The translations under genes and the position numbers were made by a program. This document shows, piece by piece, positions 10,936 to 42,130 of a stretch of DNA of 64,000 nt. Source of the DNA: Acidipropionibacterium acidipropionici (lineage in GTDB: Bacteria > Actinomycetota > Actinomycetes > Propionibacteriales > Propionibacteriaceae). The stretch is taken from contig NZ_CP013126.1 in the NCBI RefSeq assembly GCF_001441165.1, positions 2,385,551 through 2,449,550 on the forward strand, written 5' to 3'. The notes under the pieces are model-generated. The model was not told where the DNA came from. It saw only the letters and a program-made list of their open reading frames with translations, and did not search any database. The number at the start of each line of letters is the position of its first letter. Positions within the stretch are counted from its first letter, which is position 1.

Positions 10936-12534
10936 GTGCTGCAGGTCAATGATGTGGAGGTCCGAATCGGGGCCCGTCTCCTCCTCAATCCGGTGAGTTT
11001 CCAGGTCGCGCCCGGGGACAAGATCGGTCTGGTGGGGCGCAATGGCGCCGGCAAGACGACTCTCACGAAGATCCTGGCGGGGGAGGGGCTGCCCACCTCC
11101 GGCACGGTGAAGCGCACCGGGGAACTGGGCTACCTGCCCCAGGACCCCCGCGACCCGGACCTCACCCAGCTGGCCAAGGACCGGATCCTGTCGGCCCGCG
11201 GCCTGTCCCACATCCTCGAGAAGATGCAGAAGCTCGAGGATCAGATGTCGGCCGACGATGACGCCGTCCGCGAGCGGGCGATGGACAGGTACGCCAAGGC
11301 GGAGGCCCGGCTGATGGCCCAGGGCGGCTACGGGGCCGAGGCCGAGGCCGCCCGGATCTCCTCGAACCTCGCCCTGCCCGACCGGGTGCTGGGTCAGCCT
11401 CTGGGGAACCTGTCGGGCGGTCAGCGGCGCCGTGTCGAGCTGGCGCGAATCCTCTTCTCGGGCGCCGACACGCTGCTGCTCGATGAGCCCACCAACCACC
11501 TGGACGCCGACTCCATCGGCTGGCTGCGCACCTTCCTGCAGAGCTACCAGGGCGGCGTGCTGATGATCTCCCACAACACCGAGCTGATGGGCGCCATCGT
11601 CAACAAGGTCTTCCACCTGGACGCCAACCGGTCCACCATGGACATCTACTCGATGGACTGGAAGCGCTACCTCAACCAGCGCGCCGCCGACGAGAAGCGC
11701 CGCCACAAGGAGCGCGTCAACGCGGAGCGGAAGGCCTCGGCCCTGATGGCCCAGGCCGACAAGCTGCACGCCAAGGCCACCAAGGCCGTCGCCGCCCAGA
11801 ACATGGCCAAGCGGGCGGAGCGTCTCCTGGCCGGTGTGGAGGGGGAGAGGGCCGCCGACAAGGTGGCCGCGATCCGCTTCCCCAGCCCGGCGCCCTGCGG
11901 CAGGACCCCGCTGACCGCCCACAACCTCACCAAGACCTACGGCTCCCTGGAGGTCTTCACCGGCGTCGACCTGGCCGTCGACCGCGGCTCCCAGGTGGTG
12001 ATCCTGGGCCTCAACGGCGCCGGCAAGACGACCCTGCTGAGGATCCTGGCCGGGGTGGAGACCCCCGACACCGGCGAGGTGGTGCCCGGCCATGGGCTGA
12101 AGATCGGCTACTTCGCCCAGGAGCACGATCTCATCGAGATGGACCGCACGGTGCTGGACAACATGGCCCGCACCGCAGGCGACATGACCGACACCGACAT
12201 CCGCAAGATCCTCGGCTCCTTCCTGTTCACCGGTGACGACGTCGAGAAGCCCGCCCACGTGCTGTCCGGCGGTGAGAAGACGCGGCTGGCGCTGGCCATG
12301 CTCGTGGTCTCCTCGGCCAACGTCCTGCTGCTCGACGAGCCCACCAACAACCTCGACCCGGCCAGCCGGGAGCAGGTGCTGGACGCCATCGCCCACTTCG
12401 GTGGCGCAATCGTACTGGTGACCCACGACGAGGGGGCCGTCCAGGCGCTGGAGCCGGACCGGGTGCTCGTGCTGCCCGACGGCACCGAGGACCTGTGGAG
12501 CCAGGACTACGCCGAGCTCATCTCGCTGGCCTGA
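10936..12534 (+). CDS. ABC-F family ATPase
   Basis: A 532-residue soluble protein with two ABC domains and no membrane segments. The first Walker A is GRNGAGKT (about 34-41) with signature LSGGQRRRVELAR and LLLDEPTNHLD. The second Walker A is GLNGAGKT (about 358) with LSGGEKTRLALAM and LLLDEPTNNLD. The two are joined by the charged, Lys/Arg-rich linker (about 240-305) that marks the ABC-F class of ribosome-associated translation factors and antibiotic-resistance proteins. The subfamily (housekeeping versus resistance) cannot be decided from sequence alone. The GTG start at 10936 has CAGGAT 6 nt upstream and no Shine-Dalgarno. Confidence 0.92.
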   Translation: MLQVNDVEVRIGARLLLNPVSFQVAPGDKIGLVGRNGAGKTTLTKILAGEGLPTSGTVKRTGELGYLPQDPRDPDLTQLAKDRILSARGLSHILEKMQKLEDQMSADDDAVRERAMDRYAKAEARLMAQGGYGAEAEAARISSNLALPDRVLGQPLGNLSGGQRRRVELARILFSGADTLLLDEPTNHLDADSIGWLRTFLQSYQGGVLMISHNTELMGAIVNKVFHLDANRSTMDIYSMDWKRYLNQRAADEKRRHKERVNAERKASALMAQADKLHAKATKAVAAQNMAKRAERLLAGVEGERAADKVAAIRFPSPAPCGRTPLTAHNLTKTYGSLEVFTGVDLAVDRGSQVVILGLNGAGKTTLLRILAGVETPDTGEVVPGHGLKIGYFAQEHDLIEMDRTVLDNMARTAGDMTDTDIRKILGSFLFTGDDVEKPAHVLSGGEKTRLALAMLVVSSANVLLLDEPTNNLDPASREQVLDAIAHFGGAIVLVTHDEGAVQALEPDRVLVLPDGTEDLWSQDYAELISLA

Positions 12535-12581
12535 GATCTCCCATAGCATGGGGCCGACGACCGACTCACTGGAGGTACCTC

Positions 12582-13064
12582 ATGGCCCCATCGCAGGCCC
12601 GGCTCACCGGGGATGAACGGGCCGCGATGGCCCGGGTACTGGCCGACCGCTACCGCGAGGGCGCCTCGATCCGCTCTCTTGCCGCCGACTTCGGACGCTC
12701 CTACGGACTCGTGCAGCGACTGCTGAGCGAGGCCGGCGTGCGGACCCGCCCTCGTGGCGGGGCTGATCCGGCGTCCCCCGCCACCCGGGCCGGGCGGCAG
12801 GGCGAAGCGGGCCCCGTTGGCCAGATCCCGGACGACCAGCCCGATCCGGCCCTCCTCGTCGAACTCCAGGAGGCCGAGGCCAAGGCGCGCAAGGCCGAGA
12901 AGAGGCTCGCCAAGGCCGAGCGCTCCCGGGCCAAACTCACCAAGCGCACCAGCACGAAGAAGGAGCGCCGGGCCGCGAAGGAGAAGGTGGCCAGGCGCTC
13001 CCGGAAGGCCGACAAGGCCGCCCAGCGTCTCGGGCGCCTCCGCGAGCAGATGGACCGGCCCTGA
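12582..13064 (+). CDS. Helix-turn-helix protein with basic coiled-coil tail
   Basis: A 160-residue protein. Residues about 10-50 form a helix-turn-helix (RYREGASIRSLAADFGRSYG, then VQRLLSEAGV) of the type found in small actinobacterial HTH proteins. A Pro/Gly-rich linker follows, then a highly charged Lys/Ala/Arg-rich helix (about 90-155), probably a coiled coil. DNA binding is likely and the target is unknown. GGAGG at 12571-12575 lies well placed before the ATG at 12582, which decides the start. The gene follows the ABC-F gene with 47 bp between them. Confidence 0.8.
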   Translation: MAPSQARLTGDERAAMARVLADRYREGASIRSLAADFGRSYGLVQRLLSEAGVRTRPRGGADPASPATRAGRQGEAGPVGQIPDDQPDPALLVELQEAEAKARKAEKRLAKAERSRAKLTKRTSTKKERRAAKEKVARRSRKADKAAQRLGRLREQMDRP

Positions 13065-30154: not shown

Positions 30155-31162
30155 TCAGCGCAGGTAGCCCATCGGATCCACGAGTGATCCGTTGCGCTCC
30201 ATCCCGAAGTGCAGGTGGCAGCCGGTCGAGAACCCTGTGGTGCCCACGATGCCGAGCACCTGGCAGCGGGCCACCACGGAGCCGACCGCCGCGCCGGGGG
30301 CCGACAGATGGTTGTAGGTGGTGCGCACCCGTGCCCCGGCGACCACCCCGTGATCGACGACCACCCTGTTGCCCCAGGCAGCGCTGTAACCCGACTCGAC
30401 CACCCGGCCGGTCGCCGCGGCCTGCACGGGGGTGCCGCACGCGGCGGCGAAGTCTGTGCCGTCGTGGAGCTTGTAGATGCCGCGGACCGGGTGGAAGCGC
30501 ATCCCGAAGGGCGAGGAGATGGGTCCCGGGGCGGGCCGGGAGAAGGTGCCCGGCTGCCCCGCGCCGACGGCCATGGGCATTCCGATGCCCGGATCGAATC
30601 CCGGCGGGGGCTGGGAGGGCTTGTGACCGGCCGGCCACAGCCGCACCGGGCCGCGGGTTCGGGTGTCGGTCTGCACGCCCACCAGACTCAACGGGTTCTC
30701 GTAGGTCTTCCCGCGCAGCAGCCCCCAGTGCAGGCAGGACACGGCGCAGTGGCTGCCGGCGGCCAGTTCGCCCAGGATCTGCCCGGCCGCGACCGCCTGC
30801 CCGACGACCACGACGGCCAGGACCGGTTGGTGGGTGGTGCGTCGCCCGTCGGGCAGTTGGACAGAGACGGTGGGGGTCCCCGCCACCACGCCGGCGAAGA
30901 CCACCACACCTGCGGTGGCCGATCGCACCGGGTCGCCGATCTCGGCGGCCAGATCGACGCCGCGATGGCCGGCCAGCCACCGCTGGGCCGGTGGGGCGAA
31001 GCCGTCCAGGACCCTGCCCGCAACGGGCGGCGCGAGGCCGACGTCGGCCCAGGCGCGGGGCGCGTTTCGTGCTCCGATGCATGACAGGAGCAGGGTCGCC
31101 AGGACCGTACAGGCAAGGGTGGCGGCCCACTGGCGGGCGGGGGTTCTCAGTGCACCTCTCAT
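30155..31162 (-). CDS. M23 (LytM) peptidase with two tandem domains, first degenerate
   Basis: A 335-residue exported peptidoglycan hydrolase. The signal peptide holds a lipobox-like LLSC with C28, so it may be a lipoprotein. Two LytM-like domains follow. Domain 1 (about 46-165) keeps H66xxxD70 and H145, but the first His of the HxH motif is C143, so it is probably inactive. Domain 2 (about 212-333) has the full zinc set: H233xxxD237, H285 and H316-x-H318 (CHLHFGMERNG). A Pro-rich linker separates them. Single-domain M23 proteins are common next to xerC/rpsB; the doubled form is unusual. Confidence 0.9.
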   Translation of the reverse strand: MRGALRTPARQWAATLACTVLATLLLSCIGARNAPRAWADVGLAPPVAGRVLDGFAPPAQRWLAGHRGVDLAAEIGDPVRSATAGVVVFAGVVAGTPTVSVQLPDGRRTTHQPVLAVVVVGQAVAAGQILGELAAGSHCAVSCLHWGLLRGKTYENPLSLVGVQTDTRTRGPVRLWPAGHKPSQPPPGFDPGIGMPMAVGAGQPGTFSRPAPGPISSPFGMRFHPVRGIYKLHDGTDFAAACGTPVQAAATGRVVESGYSAAWGNRVVVDHGVVAGARVRTTYNHLSAPGAAVGSVVARCQVLGIVGTTGFSTGCHLHFGMERNGSLVDPMGYLR

Positions 31163-31265: not shown

Positions 31266-33209
31266 TCAGCGCACGTCGATGGTGGCGAGAAGCCGCAGTT
31301 CGACGCGCACCCAGGCGGCCCCCGGATCGGGGCCCCGCAGGGCGTCGAGGTCGGCGGCGAGGCGATGCAGGCCGATGCGATGCAGCCTCTCGCAGGCGCT
31401 GACGACCCGGCCCGGGAAAGCCCCGCCGACGTGACGCAGACCCGCATGGGCGGCGTCTGCCATCAGGTCGGCGGCGGCCGCCAGGGCCCGGTCGAGCTCA
31501 TCGCCCGGGTCCGGGGCGCCATGCATCAGAGCATCCGCGTCCCCGCCCTCGGTCAGGTCGGGCACAACGATCCCGTCGGGGGTCGCCACCGCCAGCGGAT
31601 CGATGAGAAGTCGGCCCGACCTGCGTCCCAGCACTGCGCTGATCATCTGAGGGCCGGACGCCAGGGCTGTGGCCAGTGCGTCCAGGCCGGCCGGGGCGGC
31701 GGGCCGGTAGCGGGCCACCACCTGCGCGCGGTGCCCGTCGGCGTCGGTGACGTCGGCGGTGAGCAGCTGGTCTCCCGGGCTGTAGCCGATCGTCCCCACC
31801 TCGGCGACCTCCACCTCCCGCACCGATTCGGCGGCCACCCGAGGGCGGACCAGCCGGAAACTGCGCGCGGCCAGCTGTTCCAGGGCCTCGGAGTAGTCGC
31901 TCACCACCAGGCCCGGTTGCAGCGCCCGGGCCCAGATCTGCGGGGGAGTGGTGACGGTGGTCTTCGCCACGCGGCTGTTGGCCAGGCTGAGCATCCGGGC
32001 CGCCGACCGGGAGGCGGACTCGGTCACCAGGCTGCCGCGGGCCAGGTCGCCGATCCGCACGCCGCCCGCCCGGTTCCCGGCCGTGCTGTGCGGCGCATCC
32101 TCCGAAGGCTGGTGGGTGCGGGTCCTCAGCGCCACCACGACCGCGGAGTCGACGTCCCCCAGGAAGATGTCGGTGGTCACCGTGACGGGCCCCTCGACCC
32201 TGGAGCCGTCATCGTCGGACCGCGACACCCGGGCCCCCAGTCCGACCAGGCGCACCCTCCTCATCGGGGTGGACGCCGCGACCCCGGAGCCGAGAACGGC
32301 CGCGGCACCGAGGGTCCCGGCCGCCTGTGCGCGTGCGTGGGACTCGGCGAGCAGCTCGGCGGTGATCCGCCTCGAGTATCCGGAGTGGCCGGTGGCGTAG
32401 GCGCTGAGCTGGTCGGAGAGGTCGTCGGCCACCGCCACCGCCCAGCGCAGCCCGGCCCGGTCCAGCCGGGCCCGGGCGGCGGCCAGACGCTGGGTGAGGG
32501 TGCCGGCGCTCTGCCTGACGCCGTCGGACAGGACGATGCGCGCGATCCCGGTGAGATCGTCGGTGCGGGTGGCCGCCGAGGCCACCCCGCCCAGGGGCAG
32601 TTCCACCCGCCGTGAGGACGGGTCCTGATGGTCGGCCAGTCTCCAGGCCAGCACCGCGACGGCGATCTGCTCGGCCCGGGCGGCGGCGTCGACGTCGGTG
32701 TGCGCGGCCCCCAGATCGCCGGGCACCAGGAACCTGACGGTGGTGGACGGCAGCTCGACGGCGGCCGCATTGGCGCCCACCGCCGGGCAGGAGGGGTCGG
32801 GGCGCAGCACCACCGCCACCAGACCGGAGGCGATCCGTGACCGGGCCGCCTCCAGGACGGCGGTGCCGTAGCGCCTCACGAGCTCCTCGTCGTCGACGCA
32901 GGACGGCGTCCACCCCTCGGGTGAGGCTTCGGGTGCGGTGGGCGGCAGGGAGGCACGGTAGGAGAGGACGGCGGCGAGGATGTGGCGGCACAGGCCGGTG
33001 GCGGCGCAGGAGCAGCGGGCCCCCTCCAGGCCGGAGGAGTCGATCACGGCCCGGGCGCCGTCGCCGAAGTCGCAGGTGACCGTGCCGTCGTCATCGGCCC
33101 GGCACCGGGTGGCGGGCTCCTCGGCGAGCCGCGCGGCCCGCTTGACCAGGCCGCGGTTGGTGAGGGCGGCCAGGGCGTCCTGATCCAGAGCGGTCAGATC
33201 GGCGCGCAT
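31266..33209 (-). CDS. SWIM zinc finger protein (YehQ-like), last gene of the MoxR operon
   Basis: A 647-residue protein with an N-terminal SWIM zinc finger, C66-x-C68-x5-C74-x-H76, thought to bind DNA or protein. The remaining 550 residues are alpha/beta, Ala/Arg-rich and have no recognised domain. The start ATG at 33209 shares a base with the stop of the VWA gene, so the two are coupled. SWIM genes at the end of MoxR-DUF5682-VWA operons are known from many bacteria, including yehQ of E. coli. No enzymatic motif was found. It is the last gene; 4 bp after its stop lies the DnaA-box pair. Confidence 0.88.
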   Translation of the reverse strand: MRADLTALDQDALAALTNRGLVKRAARLAEEPATRCRADDDGTVTCDFGDGARAVIDSSGLEGARCSCAATGLCRHILAAVLSYRASLPPTAPEASPEGWTPSCVDDEELVRRYGTAVLEAARSRIASGLVAVVLRPDPSCPAVGANAAAVELPSTTVRFLVPGDLGAAHTDVDAAARAEQIAVAVLAWRLADHQDPSSRRVELPLGGVASAATRTDDLTGIARIVLSDGVRQSAGTLTQRLAAARARLDRAGLRWAVAVADDLSDQLSAYATGHSGYSRRITAELLAESHARAQAAGTLGAAAVLGSGVAASTPMRRVRLVGLGARVSRSDDDGSRVEGPVTVTTDIFLGDVDSAVVVALRTRTHQPSEDAPHSTAGNRAGGVRIGDLARGSLVTESASRSAARMLSLANSRVAKTTVTTPPQIWARALQPGLVVSDYSEALEQLAARSFRLVRPRVAAESVREVEVAEVGTIGYSPGDQLLTADVTDADGHRAQVVARYRPAAPAGLDALATALASGPQMISAVLGRRSGRLLIDPLAVATPDGIVVPDLTEGGDADALMHGAPDPGDELDRALAAAADLMADAAHAGLRHVGGAFPGRVVSACERLHRIGLHRLAADLDALRGPDPGAAWVRVELRLLATIDVR

Positions 33210-34234
33210 CAGGAGCCCCCGATCGTGGCGGCCAGGAACTCGGCGAGGCGGCCCGGCGTCATAGCGCCGACCCGCGCGCCCAGATAGGCCAGCCGCTGGC
33301 CGAGCCCGTGGTCGAACTCGGGGGTCCCCTCGTCGTCGAGAGCCGCGAGCACCAGCACCACCGACCCCTGGTCCAGCAGCCGCGAGACCTGCTGGACGAG
33401 CAGCCCGGGCGCTCCTCCCTCGTACAGGTCGGTGATGAGGACGACGACGGCGCGCCGCGGGTTGTCGATGAGCTGGGCGCCGTACTGGACGGCCCGGCCG
33501 ATATCGGTGCCACCGCCCAGATGCACCTTCATGAGCAGTTCGACGGGGTCGGTGACGTCGCGGGTGAGATCGACCACCTCGGTGTCGAAGGCCACCAGGT
33601 GGGTGCGGATGCCGGGCAGACCCCACAGGCAGGCCGCGGTGACCGCCGAGTGGATCACCGATCCGGCCATCGAGTCGGACTGGTCCACCAGCAGGATCAC
33701 CTGCCAGGGGTGCAGCCGCCGCTGGTCGCGGGCGACGAACAGGGGCTCGGAGATCACCACCCGGCGGTGGACGGGGTCGTAGTGGCGCAGGTTGGCGCGC
33801 AGGGTGCGCCCCAGGTCGAAGTTGCGGCTGTTGCGCACCCGGGTGGGTGTGCGGGTGCGGGCCCCGGTGAAGGCGGTACGCACCCTGCGCGTCAGCCGCT
33901 CCATGAGCTCGTCGATGACTCTGCGGACCAGCCGTCGGGCGGCCTGGAGCACCTGCGGGTTCATGAGGTGCTTGGTCCGCAGGACGGCCTTGAGCATCGC
34001 GGTGCTGGGCTCCACCCGGGCGAGCACCTCCGGGTCGGTGAGCAGATCGTCGATCTGGAAGCGCTCCACGGCGTCGCGCTCCAGCCGCTCGACGGTCTCG
34101 GTGGGGAACAGCCGGGTGATGTCGTCGAGCCAGTCGAAGGTGGTCAGCTCCGATGCTCCTCGGCCCCCGGTGCGTCGGATGCCACCCCTCCCCCTGGCGC
34201 GGCGGACGCCGCGACGGGCCAGGGCCTCATCCAT
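33209..34234 (-). CDS. VWA domain protein (YehP/CoxE-like)
   Basis: A 341-residue protein with a helical, basic N-terminal half (RTKHLMNPQVLQAARRLVRR) and a C-terminal von Willebrand A domain. The MIDAS is intact: D184-Q-S186-D-S188, then GGGTDIG (239-245) with the Thr, and ITDLYEG (266-272) with the Asp. The combination is the CoxE/YehP type that partners MoxR AAA+ ATPases as a metal-dependent adaptor. The start ATG at 34234 overlaps the DUF5682 stop by 8 bp. No signal peptide or membrane helix is present, so it is cytosolic. Confidence 0.9.
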   Translation of the reverse strand: MDEALARRGVRRARGRGGIRRTGGRGASELTTFDWLDDITRLFPTETVERLERDAVERFQIDDLLTDPEVLARVEPSTAMLKAVLRTKHLMNPQVLQAARRLVRRVIDELMERLTRRVRTAFTGARTRTPTRVRNSRNFDLGRTLRANLRHYDPVHRRVVISEPLFVARDQRRLHPWQVILLVDQSDSMAGSVIHSAVTAACLWGLPGIRTHLVAFDTEVVDLTRDVTDPVELLMKVHLGGGTDIGRAVQYGAQLIDNPRRAVVVLITDLYEGGAPGLLVQQVSRLLDQGSVVLVLAALDDEGTPEFDHGLGQRLAYLGARVGAMTPGRLAEFLAATIGGS

Positions 34235-36518
34235 CGTGGTCCCCCAGTAGCCCGGCCGATGACAGCAGCGCCTCTGCGCGGGCCTCGGCGGCGAGGGCCT
34301 CGGCCACCAGCTCCGGCGCCGGGCCGCCGCCGCGGACCAGCGCGGACGCCCCGGCCGTACCAGTCCCATGAAGGCTCAGGACGACGGCGGCCAGGGACTG
34401 CCGTTCTGCGGGCGGGAAGACCGAGAAGGCCTCCCGCAGGCCCGGCAGACAGACCAGGAACTCCTCGGGGCCCATCGCCGTGATCACCTCGTCGACGGCG
34501 CGCATCACCGACGGGTCGTCGACCGCCTCGTCGCGGGCCAGGGCGAACAGTCCGAAGAGCCAGTCCCCGACGGTCTGCGGCCGCGACGAGGCGCGCACCT
34601 GACGGCCCGGATCCGCCGGGGCCTCGCCCAGGGCCCAGCACAGGCCGAGCGCGGCCCCCCGCAACCGGGCCGGGGCCCGGTCATCGCTCCAGGTGCGCCG
34701 GCACACCGCCAGCACGGCGGCGCGGTCGATGTCCTCGGGGCCCGATGCCACGGCGTCCCGCACGGCGGCCAGTGCGGCCACCGGAGCCCGGCCGCCGGAC
34801 TGGTCGGACGGCCCCGCGCCCGGGATCTCGCGCAGGCTCTCGACCAGCCACATGATGCGCGGCACGCAGGCCCGCACGGCGGCGCCCAACCCCTCGCCCC
34901 CGGCCGAACCGAGGACCCGGTCATGGCGCCACAGCGTCAGCATCGACGACAGACAGGCGCCCAGCGATCCCAGATCGTTCTCCCGCCCGATCCCGGCCCG
35001 AAGGCTGCCGACCAGCGAGCCGGTGAGATCGCCCAGTCCGCACAGGGCCGCATCCATCAGGACGGCCGAGGCGGCCGCCACCGGCTCCGCCGCGAGGTCG
35101 GCGGCCCGCTGCGTCAGGGCGGCCATGGCGGCGTCGTGCAGGGTGGCGCCGAATCCGGAGGCCTCGATGATGCTCGGCCCGCGCATCTCGTCGTCCTCGA
35201 TGCGCCAGGTCTCCTCGAGCACCTCCTCGGAGCCGCTCCAGGGGCCCTCGAGGCGCTGGAAACCGGCGATCGGCAGCACCCTCAGCCGGTGCAGGACCCG
35301 CGAGCGGTCCAGACCCGAGGGGCTCAACAGCGAGATCCGGTGCTCCCCGGGGCCCAGGGCGCAGCGGGAGATCTCGGCGTCGACGTCGTGCCACAGGGGC
35401 GGCAGGGGAGTGGCCTCGGCCAAACTGCCGGTGGCCTCCCCGGACAGCGCCGCCACCATCTCCACGACCACCGGGTCTGTGGCGGCCCGGATGGCCCCGC
35501 GGCGGCCCCACGGCAGCGGCACGTCGAGGGCCTCGGTGACCAGTGCGGAGGTCAGACCGTCGAGGACGTCGGTGCGTGCCGGCACCCGATTGCCCCGCAG
35601 ACCGGCCAGGCCCTCGGCCATCACCCGCGCCGAGATGAGGTCGGCGGTGGAGACCGGCTGGCGTCTGGCGCGCAGCCGGGCGGCGACGTCGGCCATCAGG
35701 CCGTCCCCGGCGGCGCGGGGCCCCTCCTCCCAGACCCGCTGGTAGTAGCCGGGTGAGGGCATCCCCGACTGGTAGCCGGAGAAGGCGTCCAGACGCCGGA
35801 AGGAGAAGGGCACCAGGTAGGAGGCCGCCTGTGCGCCCTCGGGCAGGGACGGCACCTGCGGCCACCCGCTGCACCCGTCGTCGTCGCGGGCGAGCCGCTC
35901 CAGGGCCGGGGCGTGGAAGCCCCCGGTGACCACCACGACGTCCCCGCCGTCGCGGCGGGCCGCCCGCACCCAGGAGGCCATGTGGGCCTCGCGTGCGGCG
36001 TCGGACTCGTCGGCGGCGGCGTCGCCGCGCAGCATCTCGAACCAGGCGGTCAGGCGCTCCCCGACGCCCGACGGGTCGGCGACCTCGAAGACCCGGTCCC
36101 ACAGGGCGTCGGCCGACGCCGCCCCGAAGTCCGCCTGGAGGCGGGTCATCGCCCGGTCGTAGCGCTGGTCGGCGTCGGCGTACCGGTTCTGGCGGTCCGC
36201 CAGGGCCGGATGCCAGGCGGGCAGATCGATGAAGCGCAGCTGCGCACCCACCCGAGCACCCTCCTGGAGGGCGACCCATTCGGGGGAGTAGTCGCACATC
36301 GGGCTCCAGGAGGAGTGCATGCGGGCCCCGTCGCGGTAGCCGGTGAAGATGGCGATGGGCGGGCGATGGTCGAGCAGCAGCTCCCCGATCCGATCGTTGA
36401 AGTCCGCGGGGCCCTCCACCAGGACATGGCGGGGCCGGACCGCGGCGATGACCGCGCCGACATGGCGGGCGCAGGCGGGGCTGTGGTGACGCACCCCGAT
36501 GATCGTGACGCCCATCAT
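34227..36518 (-). CDS. DUF5682 family protein (YehM-like)
   Basis: A 763-residue cytosolic protein of the DUF5682 family. The N-terminal region carries GVRHHSPA (8-15), VEGPADF (34-40) and GGFHAP (199-204). These His/Glu-containing motifs look like the pattern of TraB/ChaN-type folds; this comparison is my inference and would need structure modelling. The C-terminal 500 residues are helical, without recognised motifs. Its start overlaps the MoxR gene stop (ATGA), and it overlaps the VWA gene by 8 bp. DUF5682 genes nearly always accompany MoxR, VWA and SWIM genes, indicating a shared complex. Confidence 0.88.
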   Translation of the reverse strand: MMGVTIIGVRHHSPACARHVGAVIAAVRPRHVLVEGPADFNDRIGELLLDHRPPIAIFTGYRDGARMHSSWSPMCDYSPEWVALQEGARVGAQLRFIDLPAWHPALADRQNRYADADQRYDRAMTRLQADFGAASADALWDRVFEVADPSGVGERLTAWFEMLRGDAAADESDAAREAHMASWVRAARRDGGDVVVVTGGFHAPALERLARDDDGCSGWPQVPSLPEGAQAASYLVPFSFRRLDAFSGYQSGMPSPGYYQRVWEEGPRAAGDGLMADVAARLRARRQPVSTADLISARVMAEGLAGLRGNRVPARTDVLDGLTSALVTEALDVPLPWGRRGAIRAATDPVVVEMVAALSGEATGSLAEATPLPPLWHDVDAEISRCALGPGEHRISLLSPSGLDRSRVLHRLRVLPIAGFQRLEGPWSGSEEVLEETWRIEDDEMRGPSIIEASGFGATLHDAAMAALTQRAADLAAEPVAAASAVLMDAALCGLGDLTGSLVGSLRAGIGRENDLGSLGACLSSMLTLWRHDRVLGSAGGEGLGAAVRACVPRIMWLVESLREIPGAGPSDQSGGRAPVAALAAVRDAVASGPEDIDRAAVLAVCRRTWSDDRAPARLRGAALGLCWALGEAPADPGRQVRASSRPQTVGDWLFGLFALARDEAVDDPSVMRAVDEVITAMGPEEFLVCLPGLREAFSVFPPAERQSLAAVVLSLHGTGTAGASALVRGGGPAPELVAEALAAEARAEALLSSAGLLGDHDG

Positions 36519-37606
36519 CCCGGCAGCAGGCCGCGGGCCTCGCCCAACCCCCGCCAGGCCCTTCCTCGTTTGCGGGGCACCTGCTGCTCGAGATAGCGGC
36601 GAAGACGGGTGAGGTCCTCGGCGTCGTCCTTGACCGCGGCCCCGGCGAGGGTGGCGACGATGTCGCCCGGATCCGGCTCGGTACCGCGCAGGTACCAGGC
36701 CCGCACCCCCATGGCGTGGGCCACTGAGACGGCCTCGGCGGTGCTCATGACGGTCGACATCGGGTCCATCGCGTCGCCGTCGGCGGTGCGTCCCTCGCGC
36801 AGCTCCCGAAAAGCGGTCACCAGCACCTCCATGACGTCGGGTGGAGGGGAGACGGGCACCCCGGACTCGTGCAGCAGCCGGGTGGCCTCGTCGAGCACCA
36901 GCCGGTACTCGGTGTCGAAGTCGGCGATCGGGAAGACGGTCTCGAAGTTGAACGGTCTCTTGAGGGCGGCGCTCATCTCGTTGACGCCCCGGTCCCGGGT
37001 GTTCGCGGTGGCGATGACATTGAACCCCTGCCGGGCGAAGGTCATGGCCTCGGGCCCCGACAGCTCCGGGACGGCCAGGCTGCGCTCCGAGAGCAGGGAG
37101 AGCAGGCAGTCCTGCACCTCCAGGGGGCAGCGGGTGATCTCCTCGAAGCGGACGACGCCGCTCCGGACCATCCCGGTGAGCATCGGCGCCGGCACCAGGG
37201 CGGCTGGGGTGGGGCCGTCGGCCACCAGCATGGCGTAGTTCCACGAGTACTTGATCTGGTCCTCCGTGGTGGCCGCCCCGCCCTGGATGGTCAGTGTCGA
37301 GTCCCCGGAGACGGCGGCGGCGATGAGTTCGGACAGCAGAGACTTCGCCGTGCCCGGCTCCCCGATGAGCATCAGCCCGCGGCTGGTGGCCAGGGTCACC
37401 AGGCAGCGGTCCACCAGAGACGGGTCGCCGACGAATTTGGCGGTGACGCCCCGGGCGGGGTCCCCGCAGATGAATCGCCGGGCGGCGTCCAGCGACATCG
37501 CCCACCCCGGTGGCCTGGCCGCGGTGTCGGAGCGTCGCAGGGCCTCCAGCTCGGCGGCGAAACGCACCTCCGCGGGCGGTCGCTGCACATCCGGGGCGCT
37601 GCTCAT
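36515..37606 (-). CDS. MoxR-type AAA+ ATPase (YehL-like)
   Basis: A 363-residue AAA+ ATPase. Walker A is GEPGTAKS (82-89), Walker B VVRFEEI (151-157), sensor 1 ATANTRD (199-205), and the arginine-finger region LKRPF (215-219). The insertions and the neighbours place it in the MoxR/YehL subgroup, which acts as a chaperone-like remodelling ATPase together with a VWA partner. The ATG at 37606 was chosen for its ATGA overlap with the upstream DUF4132 stop; an ATG at 37618 is the alternative. Its stop overlaps the DUF5682 start. Confidence 0.9.
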   Translation of the reverse strand: MSSAPDVQRPPAEVRFAAELEALRRSDTAARPPGWAMSLDAARRFICGDPARGVTAKFVGDPSLVDRCLVTLATSRGLMLIGEPGTAKSLLSELIAAAVSGDSTLTIQGGAATTEDQIKYSWNYAMLVADGPTPAALVPAPMLTGMVRSGVVRFEEITRCPLEVQDCLLSLLSERSLAVPELSGPEAMTFARQGFNVIATANTRDRGVNEMSAALKRPFNFETVFPIADFDTEYRLVLDEATRLLHESGVPVSPPPDVMEVLVTAFRELREGRTADGDAMDPMSTVMSTAEAVSVAHAMGVRAWYLRGTEPDPGDIVATLAGAAVKDDAEDLTRLRRYLEQQVPRKRGRAWRGLGEARGLLPG

Positions 37607-40600
37607 GAGACCAGCCATTCCAGGTCGCGCAGGATCTCGGAGACGAGCACCTGGCCCAGGGCGCCCAGGTCGCCGTCCGGCTCGTTCTGCCAGGAGTACC
37701 CGCCGCGGGTGAGGATCGCCGGGCCGAGTTTCTGCTCGGCGAAGTCCTCGAAGTTCGGGTCTCCGACGATGATGCCGGGTTCCAGGGCGATCACCAGGGT
37801 CTGGTCCCCGGGCAGGTCGCGGCACACCCACGACTGGATTCCGGCGTCCTCGGGGGCGGCCCGGTACCAGCCGCGGCTCTCCAGGACGAGGATCTTGGTG
37901 GTCTTGACAGTCCTGGCCTCGGCGCGCCGGATGGTGCTGCTCGACATCTCCTCGGCGGTGGGCGCGTACACCGCCCGGCCCAGCTGCTCGAAGGGCTGGA
38001 GGATCTCGTAGTCGCCGAAGATCTGCGACCAGCCGGCCGTCAGGTCGGCGCCGAGCAGCAGCGGATGGGCCACCCGGATCTCCGCGGCCTCGGGGAGGGT
38101 GTACTCCTCGTCCTCGACGTCGGCCAGTGTGCGGTCCTCGGCCACCCGGAACCCGATGGAGACGCCGCCGGTCTGCGCGGTCCACACCAGCCGGCGGGCC
38201 AGATGCACCATGAGGGGGTGTTCGGAGAACACCTGTGTGAAGATCTCCGGTGTCCAGCTGCGCTGGGACACCATCGCCGACTCAAGGCGTCTCACCTGAT
38301 CCGAGGCGACCGCGCGGGCCTCCTTCTTCATCACCCGGAACCAGTCGTAGGAGGCCTTCGCCAGTTCGGCGTCGTCCTTGGCGCCGGGCTTCGGCAGGGC
38401 CTTGCGGCGCACACCGTCCTGGCTGACGAAGGGTCTCAGGGTCTCGTCGAAGCCGACGGTGAACTGCCTGGGGCCGTAGTTCAGCACCCGCGATCCGTCC
38501 GCATCCAGATCGAGATCGGGCACCAGCCTGTCGGCGAGCTCCTCGGACGTCAGGCCCCGTTCCTCGGCGATCTGGTCGATGAGGGCCACCGCCTGGGCGC
38601 GCAGCGGCTTCGAGGGCACCTTCAGCGAGATCCGGTGCAGGTGCATCAGGGCGGTGTCGGTGCCGATCGCAGCCAGCACGGGCAGGGCGTTGACGGCACG
38701 CCGATAGCCGCCCGCTTTCGGCCAGGCCCGGATGAGCGGGGAGAGCATCCGTACCGTCTCGTCGTCGCCGAGAAATCCCTGGGCGTCCAGCACCCATCCC
38801 TGCTTCGACGGGAATCCGGCGATCCGCCACTGCTCGAACAGGGCCCGGGCGAAGGCCGCCAGGATGCCGGCGTCGAAGGACTCCCGGAGCACCTGCACCC
38901 CGGCGTAGCGATCATCGAGACTCGACAGCGCCAGAACGGTGACGACGTCGGGCACCATCGGCGACGGAACGGCCGAGTCCGCACGGGTGAGGAGCCGGGG
39001 CAGCGCAGCGGGGTTCAGCCAGGTCGGCTGCTTCGGGATCCTGGCGGGCAGGGCCTCCAGCGGGTCGGCGTCCAGCACGGTGGCCAGGGCGGCCGCAACC
39101 CCGGGCCCGAAGGCGGACGCCGCCTGCTCGACCCTCGGCCGGCCCGCCTGCGCGGCGATCCGGCGCAGCGCGTTCTCGGCCTCGGAGCGTGCCTTCCCGG
39201 GCTTTCCCAGGGCTATCGGGGTCAGCCCGGTCACCGCGCTCTCAAGATGACGTGCGAACCACTGCTCGGCGAGGGGGCGCACCGTCTTGGGGCGGAGCCA
39301 GCCGGCCATCATGGCGGCCACCGGGGCCCCGCCCACCGGCATCAGGAGACTGGCGCAGGTGCTCGGCTGGCGGCGCGCGGCGTCCAGGACGATGGGCAGC
39401 GCGTCGTCGGCGAAGCGCGCCAGTACGATCCGCATCCAGTCCTGGGCCTGCCACAGATCGCGGATCGTCATACGGCCCAACAATGGCCGCAGTAGTTCCT
39501 CGGGGGCGTTGATGAGCAGCAGCTGGAGGTGCCCCCACATTCTGTCCCCGGCCAGCACCTGATCGGCGAGCTGCTGCCAGCTGACCCCGGACGGGGGGGG
39601 TTGTGGCCGCGCTGATAGTTCGGCACCGTCAGCCACTCCTCCTGCTCACCGGGCAACCAGTCCAGGCGGGTGTCGTCAGGGGCTTCGAGGCCCTCGATCA
39701 CCGTCTGAGTCTTCCGGGACCGCTTCCCGGCCCACGGCGGGGAGACGAGGAGGGCCGGGAGCTGCGACGGGTCGGCATCGGGGTGGTCCCCCTCGGCCAG
39801 AACCTCCCTGATTCGGGCCGCCGCACCGGCCGGAAGCCGATCCGCCACCTCGGCGGCCAGGTCGCGGTCAGACCGCGCCCGGGCGGCCAGGAGCTCGGCG
39901 GTCCCCCGGCCCGCAGAGGCTCTGCGGGCCAGCAGATCCAGGGCGGGCCCGGGCCGCCGGTCGGTGGCGGTGAGGACGGAGGCACCGGCACGAGGATCGT
40001 CGATGTGCTCGATCAGCAGGTCCAGCGCCTCGTCGGAGGGCAGTTCGGCGATCAGGGAGTAGTAATTCCTGGCCTCCGCGGCATCGGGATCGTCGTCGAG
40101 GAGGGCCTTCAGGGTCGGCAGGGCATCCGCACCGATCCTGTCCACAGCGGTCACCAGGTTGGTGAAGCCCGTCCCTCCCACCGAGTAGCTGGGGACCCGG
40201 TCGAGGAGCCCGAGGAGCTGGTCGCCGGTGTGGGGCACGGCGAGGGCCATCACGGGCAGCGGATCGGCTCCCTCCAGGGCTGCCTGCGCCCAGTCCCCGC
40301 GGTCGGGGGCGAGATAGGCCGCGACGAGCCTCTGCAGGGGCTCGGCGGAGGCGTAGCTCGTGAGCACCTCGACCACCTGCTCGTGGGTGGCGTCGTCGCA
40401 GGCGGCCACCGGGGTGCGAAGCGCCTCGGCCGCCCACGTCCAACTGACGGTCCATGCCTGAGATGTGTCACCGGTGCCGGCAGGTCGCACGATCATCTGC
40501 TCCCCGTCCTCCTCGAGGCAGAGCCCGGCGAGGCCGGCGGCACAGGACACCGCCGAGGGAAGGGACATCTGAGCCAGCCACAGCTGCGGGAGGGTCTGCT

Positions 40601-40892
40601 GCAGCTCGCCCCGCGTCCTCCAGTCCGCCCGCGCGACGGACAGCATGGCCAGGGTCATGGCGGCCACTCCGAGCGGGCTGGCCGGATCGGCGTCGCGGAC
40701 GGGGGAGGGGCTGGCGGCCACCATCCGGCGCGCCTGAGGTATCAGAGGGGAGATGGTCTCCCGGGCGGTGTCGACGTCCCCCTGGCGGATCGTCGGTGCC
40801 GACGCCGGCCGATGCCTGTTGCGATCGGGCAGGATCTTTCGCCGCCAGGGATCGGGAAGCTCGAACCGGACCTCGTCCACCCGCTGTGACAC
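37603..40892 (-). pseudogene. DUF4132 protein (YehI-like), frameshifted in a G8 tract
   Basis: First gene of the MoxR operon. One protein of about 1,100 residues is encoded in two frames. The upstream part (from GTG 40892, with AAGGAG 7 nt before) runs to NYQRGHN and then leaves frame at a run of eight G (39593-39600; C8 in the coding strand). The downstream part resumes at PPPSGVSWQQLADQ and continues to 37603, containing the DUF4132 region (LESAMVSQRSWTPEIF, HLARRLVW). One added C (C9), or loss of two, restores the frame. This may be a sequencing or assembly error, slippage-based phase variation, or real inactivation. The stop overlaps the MoxR start by ATGA. Confidence 0.85.
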
Positions 40893-41215: not shown

Positions 41216-42130
41216 ATGGCCGTCGTCACCACCCGTCAGCTGCTCGAGAGCGGCGTCCACTTCGGGCACCAGACCCGTCGCTGGAACCCCAAGATGAAGC
41301 GCTTCATCTTCACCGAGCGCAACGGCATCTACATCATCGACCTGCACCAGTCGCTGACCTACATCGACAAGGCCTACGCCTTCGTCAAGAAGACCGTCGC
41401 CAACGGCGGCCAGATCCTCTTCGTCGGCACCAAGAAGCAGGCTCAGGAGTCCATCTCCGAGCAGGCCAGCCGGGTCGGCATGCCGTTCGTCAACCAGCGT
41501 TGGCTCGGCGGCATGCTCACCAACTTCCAGACCATCTCCCAGCGCATCGCCCGCCTCAAGGAGCTCGAGGCGATGGACTTCGACACGGTCGCCGGCTCCG
41601 GCCTCACGAAGAAGGAGCTGCTCATGCTCTCCCGTGAGAAGGACAAGCTGGCCAAGGATCTGGGCGGCATCCGCGACATGCCCAAGACCCCGCAGGCGGT
41701 CTGGATCGTCGACACCAAGAAGGAGCACCTCGCCGTCGACGAGGCCCGCAAGCTGCGCATCCCGATCGTGGGGATCCTCGACACCAACTGCGATCCCGAC
41801 GAGGTCGACTACGCGATCCCGGGCAACGACGACGCCATCCGCTCCGTCTCGCTGCTCACCCGGATCATCGCCGACGCCGCCGCCGAGGGCCTGATGGCCC
41901 GCTCGCAGGGCAGCTCGGAGGCCGCCGAGGGCAAGACCGCGGCCGAGCCCATGCCCGACTGGGAGCGCGAGCTCCTCGAGGGTTCCGAGAAGGCCGAGGC
42001 CGAGAAGCCGGCCGAGGAGGCCAAGCCCGCTGAGGAGGCCAAGCCGGCCGCCCAGGCCGAGGCCGCAGACGCCCAGGCCCAGCAGCTCGCCGCCGAGGTG
42101 GAGACCGCCAAGCCCGCCGAGAACAACTGA
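41216..42130 (+). CDS. rpsB: 30S ribosomal protein S2
   Basis: Ribosomal protein S2 of 304 residues. The conserved core is [46 protein letters not shown] and [20 protein letters not shown]-terminal extension of about 55 residues is rich in Ala, Glu and Lys with near-repeats of EEAKPA, as often seen in high-GC Gram-positives. GAAAGGA at 41201-41207 precedes the ATG. It is followed by tsf in the usual order. Confidence 0.98.

Follow-up and report, generated by a model that had tools for sequence, protein, structure and literature searches.

Do five overlapping genes that stand between a peptidase gene and rpsB in an actinobacterium encode a single machine and, if so, what might that machine do? 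The genes occupy positions 31266-40892 on the minus strand of the window, by which we mean the whole 64,000-nucleotide stretch of Acidipropionibacterium acidipropionici DNA analyzed here (contig NZ_CP013126.1, positions 2,385,551 to 2,449,550), taken from a genome assembled as one 3.65-Mb contig. Pfam profile searches identified, beginning upstream, a DUF4132 protein (37603-40892; PF13569, 180 bits), a MoxR AAA+ ATPase of 363 residues (36515-37606; PF07728 AAA_5, 107 bits), a DUF5682 protein of 762 residues (34227-36515; PF18934, 349 bits), a CoxE-type VWA protein of 341 residues (33209-34234; PF05762 VWA_CoxE, 184 bits) and a SWIM zinc-finger protein of 647 residues (31266-33209; PF04434, 19.8 bits, the cut-off being 19.6). 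A preliminary description of this DNA had named the same five families and given their overlaps as 1 to 8 bp, and both points are borne out: the overlap is 4 bp between DUF4132 (stop 37603-37605) and MoxR (ATG 37606), 1 bp between MoxR (stop 36515-36517) and DUF5682 (ATG 36515), 8 bp between DUF5682 (stop 34227-34229) and VWA (ATG 34234) and 1 bp between VWA (stop 33209-33211) and SWIM (ATG 33209), lengths that depend on start codons which are themselves predicted choices. The codon-position GC agrees with these frames. The preliminary description took the tight overlaps to imply one complex; what they suggest is that translation may be coupled. The same description gave the gene order as that of yehI-L-M-P-Q in Escherichia coli, correctly so: K-12 (NC_000913.3) has yehI, (yehK), yehL, yehM, yehP and yehQ, and the best tblastn segments show identities of 33% (DUF4132), 59% (MoxR), 37% (DUF5682), 55% (VWA) and 26% (SWIM) between the window and E. 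coli.

The five families form a real unit. A DUF5682 profile scan of genome contigs gave at least 579 confirmed places, of which the best 80 were examined; being chosen by DUF5682, these loci tell how often this type of DUF5682 has its partners. All five families were found together in 71 of the 80, consistent with the operon that the preliminary description had put forward, and 67 of the 80 have them on the same strand in the order DUF4132 (one to three copies)-MoxR-DUF5682-VWA-SWIM, in a collection spanning Actinomycetota, Pseudomonadota, Myxococcota, Acidobacteriota and Planctomycetota. Among the nine loci without one or more families, six are cut by contig ends (L090, L096, L097, L098, L099, and L105) and three have no DUF4132 within the stretch (L057, L107, and L115). 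A complete set of the five genes arranged differently, as in DUF5682-VWA-SWIM-DUF4132-MoxR, was seen at five loci (L158, L162, L163, L164, and L166). We could not identify a sixth conserved neighbor among the 556 open reading frames (ORFs) flanking the 80 loci, which carry no functional annotation; the largest neighbor cluster reached 11 of the 80, at scattered positions.

Starting from DUF4132, the picture is more varied. DUF4132 is present in 29 of 215 genomes of the window's order, and the stretch around it was inspected in each: ten have all five families (the window, G003, G034, G068, G101, G114, G189, G212, G218, and G245), eight are partial or lie at contig ends, one (G075) yielded none of the five, and the other ten are considered below. 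Within 57 genomes of the window's taxonomic family, all 10 DUF4132-positive genomes fall among the 24 that are DUF5682-positive (Fisher p 4.5e-5, uncorrected for kinship); one of these ten (G032) scores below the Pfam cut-off, and some, G051 among them, have their DUF4132 gene at a separate place. DUF4132-like genes stand alone in the stretch at L170, L171, L173, L175, L176, and L177, in genomes of ~8.4-9.3 Mb belonging to one genus of the order. DUF5682 matches were present in 29 of 72,556 plasmid records, some of them chromosome-sized, and in one of 50,697 phage records; in the phage collection, positions 11487-12755 of the putative phage MT835988.1 hold a DUF5682-like stretch with 27.7% identity over 55% of the query.

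The cassette was gained or lost as one block. Three genomes of the same genus (G027, G047, and G057) have XerC, M23, rpsB and tsf adjacent without a cassette, with an M23-rpsB gap of 319 to 373 bp by alignment ends, whereas the window and G003 have the cassette between the M23 peptidase gene (30155-31162, minus strand in the window) and rpsB (41237-42130, plus strand, divergent from the cassette), a separation that had already been pointed out. DUF5682 and DUF4132 had no match anywhere in the G027 and G047 genomes; for G057 the M23-rpsB region was covered. In the window, an Rfam scan returned no matches, and promoter and terminator scans gave matches no commoner than chance. Phylogenetic analysis of MoxR used 41 rows of our choosing, covering YehL and RavA among the MoxR subfamilies, with L041 dropped for a stop. 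The window MoxR clusters with actinomycetes, Pseudonocardiaceae among them, whereas the MoxR of a second cassette from the window's own family (L045/L104) nests inside a Pseudomonadota clade with YehL; the MoxR, DUF5682, VWA and SWIM proteins of that cassette give better scores with their E. coli counterparts than with those of the window. Its DUF4132 departs from this pattern, with 40% identity to the C-terminal part of the window protein and 30% to YehI. The simplest reading of these comparisons is that the cassette may have been transferred as a set between distant bacteria.

The DUF5682 protein is where a biochemical activity can be proposed. Our alignment of this family has 47 rows, the window and 46 other loci (of 52 rows, two had stops and four more were left out), and in Pfam scans at E≤10 all 47 members matched DUF5682, while among all other families ChaN, of the Tiki superfamily, alone drew matches from several members (3/47). 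Comparison of profiles with hhalign gave, for residues 1-270 of DUF5682, P 8.7e-6 against TraB/GumN over residues 3-211, 1.5e-4 against TraB alone and 2.4e-5 against ChaN; accepted pairs used as a yardstick gave 1.3e-4 (ChaN-TraB) and 1.7e-6 (ChaN-TraB/GumN). With one side reversed the Prob was at most 0.9%, and with both sides reversed, which keeps kinship, 24 to 57%; the remainder of DUF5682 against the superfamily profiles gave at most 0.4%, and the unrelated profiles VWA, MoxR, SWIM and DUF4132 at most 0.9%.

Consistent with this, a signature of GxxH, Glu, Arg and a second GxxH falls at G7/H10, E34, R175 and G198/H201 in the window (residues ~1-211, positions 35883-36515), at G38/H41, E65, R212 and G235/H238 in an alignment of 12 TraB sequences and at G37/H40, E68, R176 and G199/H202 in one of five ChaN sequences. 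H10, E34, R175, G198 and H201 are present in all 74 DUF5682 rows and G7 in 72; the spacing from the first His to the Glu is 24 in DUF5682, 24 in TraB and 28 in ChaN, and that from the Arg to the second His is 26 in all three. In one TIKI enzyme a set of two His and two Glu is named as catalytic (PMC6254334), and DUF5682 and the TraB set both keep two His and one Glu. Profile comparison thus places the DUF5682 N-terminal domain with the TIKI/TraB/ChaN superfamily, and its signature had gone unnoticed in the preliminary description.

The motifs of the other core proteins are well kept too. In the motif tables one DUF5682 row contains a stop and rows under a coverage limit are omitted. The window MoxR belongs with YehL, RavA being a far branch of unsure place, and all 80 MoxR rows share K88, S89, E155 and E156; the Walker A motif of the window protein, GEPGTAKS (residues 82-89), is intact as had been claimed, whereas the same claim for Walker B needs qualification, the stretch VRFEEI (Glu 155-156) having Glu at a position usually held by Asp. 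The metal ion-dependent adhesion site (MIDAS) of the VWA protein is intact, as noted earlier (D184xSxS and T243); D184, S186, S188 and T243 are invariant in 76 of 76 rows. The SWIM protein has one finger of the form CxCx5CxH (C66xCx5CxH76), also noted earlier, which is found in 67 of 70 rows; a second finger, present in YehQ, occurs in 21 of 70 and is absent from the window, G003 and most actinobacterial rows. Sequence searches of the PDB gave midasin as the sole match to MoxR at E≤0.001, none to the VWA protein at E≤0.01, and best E-values of 0.11 for the SWIM protein and 0.23 for DUF4132.

DUF4132 appears to be a part that can be exchanged. The window's family has, at 16 loci (L023-L038), a sister cassette, SWIM-DUF5691-MoxR-DUF5682-VWA, its SWIM and DUF5691 families shown by Pfam in L023 and L026; with automatic ORF choice, homologous DUF5691-type ORFs were recovered in 12 of the 16 loci and SWIM-type ORFs in 10. 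The sister cassette has four kinds of part in common with the window, of which MoxR, DUF5682 and VWA are detectably homologous, and differs in that DUF5691 replaces DUF4132, the gene order is another one and the SWIM protein is shorter. DUF4132 proteins weakly match HEAT_2 (7 of 33 members, best E 0.019), they occur as tandem paralogs in one to three copies per locus, and a WGR domain was detected at E≤0.01 in 34 of 102 DUF4132 N-terminal stretches, the set retained from 121 frames after those too short or cut had been removed (three loci yield overlapping frames). The DUF5691 swap and the HEAT_2 and WGR matches therefore suggest that the large HEAT-type subunit picks the client.

In the window as assembled, the DUF4132 frame is itself broken. 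The preliminary description had missed that the N-terminal part (to 40892; 39612-40892 matches the G003 protein) and the C-terminal part (stop at 37603, containing the PF13569 match) are in different frames in this assembly, the switch coinciding with eight consecutive C residues on the minus strand (39593-39600). In G003, of the same genus, DUF4132 is one stop-free frame of 1085 codons. Downstream of the switch, the ratio of nonsynonymous to synonymous substitution rates (dN/dS) against G003 is 0.295, indicating constraint, compared with 0.21-0.39 for the other pieces of the cassette, 0.22 for the flanking rpsB and 0.15 for M23; the break may therefore be of recent date or a sequence error, or slippage may bridge it.

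Given these observations, the explanation we favor, if tentatively and at a little short of an even chance, is that this self-contained YehL-type cassette, transmitted as a block, is an ATP-driven client-remodeling machine with a built-in putative hydrolase. DUF4132, being HEAT-like, often equipped with WGR, duplicated, or replaced by DUF5691, would be the exchangeable adaptor that selects a client; the VWA protein would bind a client peptide or a metal and couple the client to the MoxR ring, which would remodel it; the TIKI-type domain would cleave a peptide or ester bond of the client, or hold a cofactor for it; and the SWIM protein would hold the assembly or a nucleic acid. The likeliest setting might be stress or DNA damage: in Deinococcus, the DUF4132 protein DRA0166 is increased with mitomycin C in the wild type, an increase that is lost when irrE is mutated (PMC8533742).

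Several observations weigh against this explanation. The stress role suggested by DRA0166 is an analogy at the level of the DUF4132 protein family; DUF4132 is the sole family found within the stretch in 10 of the 29 DUF4132-positive genomes (G051, G102, G104, G113, G117, G123, G139, G144, G149, and G246); and the DUF4132 frame is broken in the window's own genome. We infer the TIKI fold of DUF5682 from profiles alone: in single-protein Pfam scans the best ChaN match has E 0.031, below the cut-off, a further 19 families each have a single matching member, three at a lower E than ChaN, the ChaN profile alignment spans 33 columns only, and a PDB sequence search gave no relative of DUF5682 at E≤10. 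The DUF5682 type of the sister cassette is weaker in the same comparisons (P 9.6e-5 against TraB/GumN, 0.0028 against TraB and 0.014 against ChaN). As for activity, neither DUF5682 nor the TraB alignment conserves the second Glu of the 2His/2Glu set, and a superfamily member without the 2His/2Glu motif is described as inactive (PMC6254334).

Other functions have to be weighed against client remodeling. The MoxR-VWA pair could mature a molybdenum enzyme or another metalloenzyme, with the ChaN-like domain of DUF5682 carrying metal or heme, a somewhat unlikely account to which the VWA_CoxE match lends weight, the pairing being that of CoxD-CoxE and the chelatases, as does the heme-binding that the Pfam description gives for ChaN. 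In E. coli, molR is listed beside yehI (PMC10652928) and is cited, in titles of references, as essential for molybdate use, and within the 57 genomes of the window's family the molybdenum-related profile Mob_synth_C is present in 10/10 DUF4132-positive genomes versus 27/47 others (Fisher p 0.010). At the level of the order, however, the association fades (28/29 versus 165/186, p 0.32), and both tests are uncorrected for kinship and genome size and count DUF4132 genes that are not always in a cassette. Genome G131, where DUF4132 and part of MoxR alone were found, has DUF4132 without Mob_synth_C; in Deinococcus, moeA and moeB are given as showing no differential expression alongside the DUF4132 regulon (PMC8533742); and neighbor families recur in at most 11 of the 80 loci. 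WGR domains bind DNA ends. This property would suit a complex in which damaged DNA ends, or the proteins on them, are recognized by WGR-DUF4132 and SWIM and then cleared or processed by the MoxR-VWA motor. The WGR domains in one third of the DUF4132 N-terminal stretches are in keeping with such a complex, as are the increase of both DRA0166 and the WGR protein DR2173 with mitomycin C and the statement that MolR is in the LexA regulon (both PMC8533742), but the window's genome has no WGR match, and regulatory sites speak against it. Across 86 loci there is no consistent SOS box or shared LexA-type site, the 33 matches to GAACN4GTTC being at scattered positions, which also counts against a DNA-damage setting for a remodeling machine; near E. 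coli yehH no CTGTN8ACAG lies within one mismatch in 400 bp, and the SOS pattern in the window is no commoner than chance. We consider a DNA-damage complex unlikely. One locus has a perfect palindrome of the actinobacterial SOS-box type, CGAACATATGTTCG, close to the 5' side of a DUF4132 match (L055:4831-4844).

The idea that the cassette acts against phages or in some other conflict, a role put forward for expanded MoxR-VWA operons and taken up in the preliminary description, found no support here, and we regard it as very improbable. The patchy spread of the cassette, its apparent transfer between phyla and the tandem DUF4132 paralogs would fit such a role, as would analogy with the MoxR-vWA ternary systems (PMC7159879), some of which are CRISPR-linked (PMC10910872); but none of eight ORFs matched a PADLOC model at E≤0.01, no neighbor family recurs in more than 11 of the 80 loci, and the main text of PMC7159879, the paper on MoxR-vWA conflict systems, is silent on yeh, SWIM and DUF4132. 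The distribution in E. coli is telling. The genes yehL-Q (yehI was outside the query) are covered to at least 80% in 5162 of 5426 E. coli genomes, and in one pair of strains yehL, yehM, yehP and yehQ have low dN/dS values of 0.045-0.111; on both grounds a defense role in E. coli is unlikely. The cassette is non-essential there, given that strain DGF-298 is without it (PMC10652928) and that strain a7 has lost most of the region beside insertion sequences. Disruptions were seen at L190 and hit H1 (E. coli a7 and HNSQ2209), where most of the yeh region is lost beside insertion sequences, or DUF5682 is annotated as two segments with an IS5 transposase between them.

A remodeling machine of this kind would matter beyond the actinobacteria, as yehL-Q is present in almost every complete E. 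coli genome that was searched. Placing YehM in the TIKI superfamily, with named residues, offers a biochemical handle on YehL; should YehM be an enzyme that works with the ATPase, protein processing driven by ATP would have gained a new kind, and the replacement of DUF4132 by DUF5691 gives a hint as to the part that selects the target. It is possible, although we are doubtful, that the Yeh and DUF5691 cassettes together represent a new class of ATP-dependent processing machine, in which a MoxR ring and VWA protein feed a TIKI-type protease or esterase and swappable HEAT/WGR adaptors set the client, from E. coli to actinobacteria. In open-licence PubMed Central text we found neither the term DUF5682 nor a paper joining DUF4132 with MoxR, and no TIKI assignment for DUF5682, no sister cassette and no function for yehL-Q, although further papers, those under subscription among them, may hold more.

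The E. coli yeh operon is the closest known counterpart: it has the same five families in the same order, and the window MoxR is near to YehL, a named MoxR subfamily and one of two MoxR ATPases in K-12 (PMC3893208), and far from RavA. The window differs in its broken DUF4132 frame, in its single SWIM finger, YehQ having two, in the absence of yehK and in its genomic site. Compared with the TIKI/TraB/ChaN superfamily, DUF5682 has the two GxxH motifs, the Glu and the Arg at TraB spacing, and differs in having no superfamily match over a Pfam cut-off, in the ~550 residues that follow the domain and in a gene tied to that of an AAA+ protein. The MoxR-vWA ternary conflict systems, whose third component is VMAP, iSTAND or a beta-propeller, have a MoxR and vWA core in common with the window; the five window proteins have no match to Pfam models of these third components at E≤0.01, and the bpMoxR profile scores 21.2 bits, below its 27-bit cut-off. 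The same conflict-system paper derives its own MoxR-vWA pairs from CoxD-CoxE (PMC7159879). In CoxD-CoxE and RavA-ViaA, as in the window, a MoxR ATPase is paired with a VWA partner, which in the window is of the VWA_CoxE type; RavA is a very distant branch from the window MoxR in the 41-row tree, and to the pair that these systems have in common the Yeh cassette adds DUF5682, SWIM and DUF4132.

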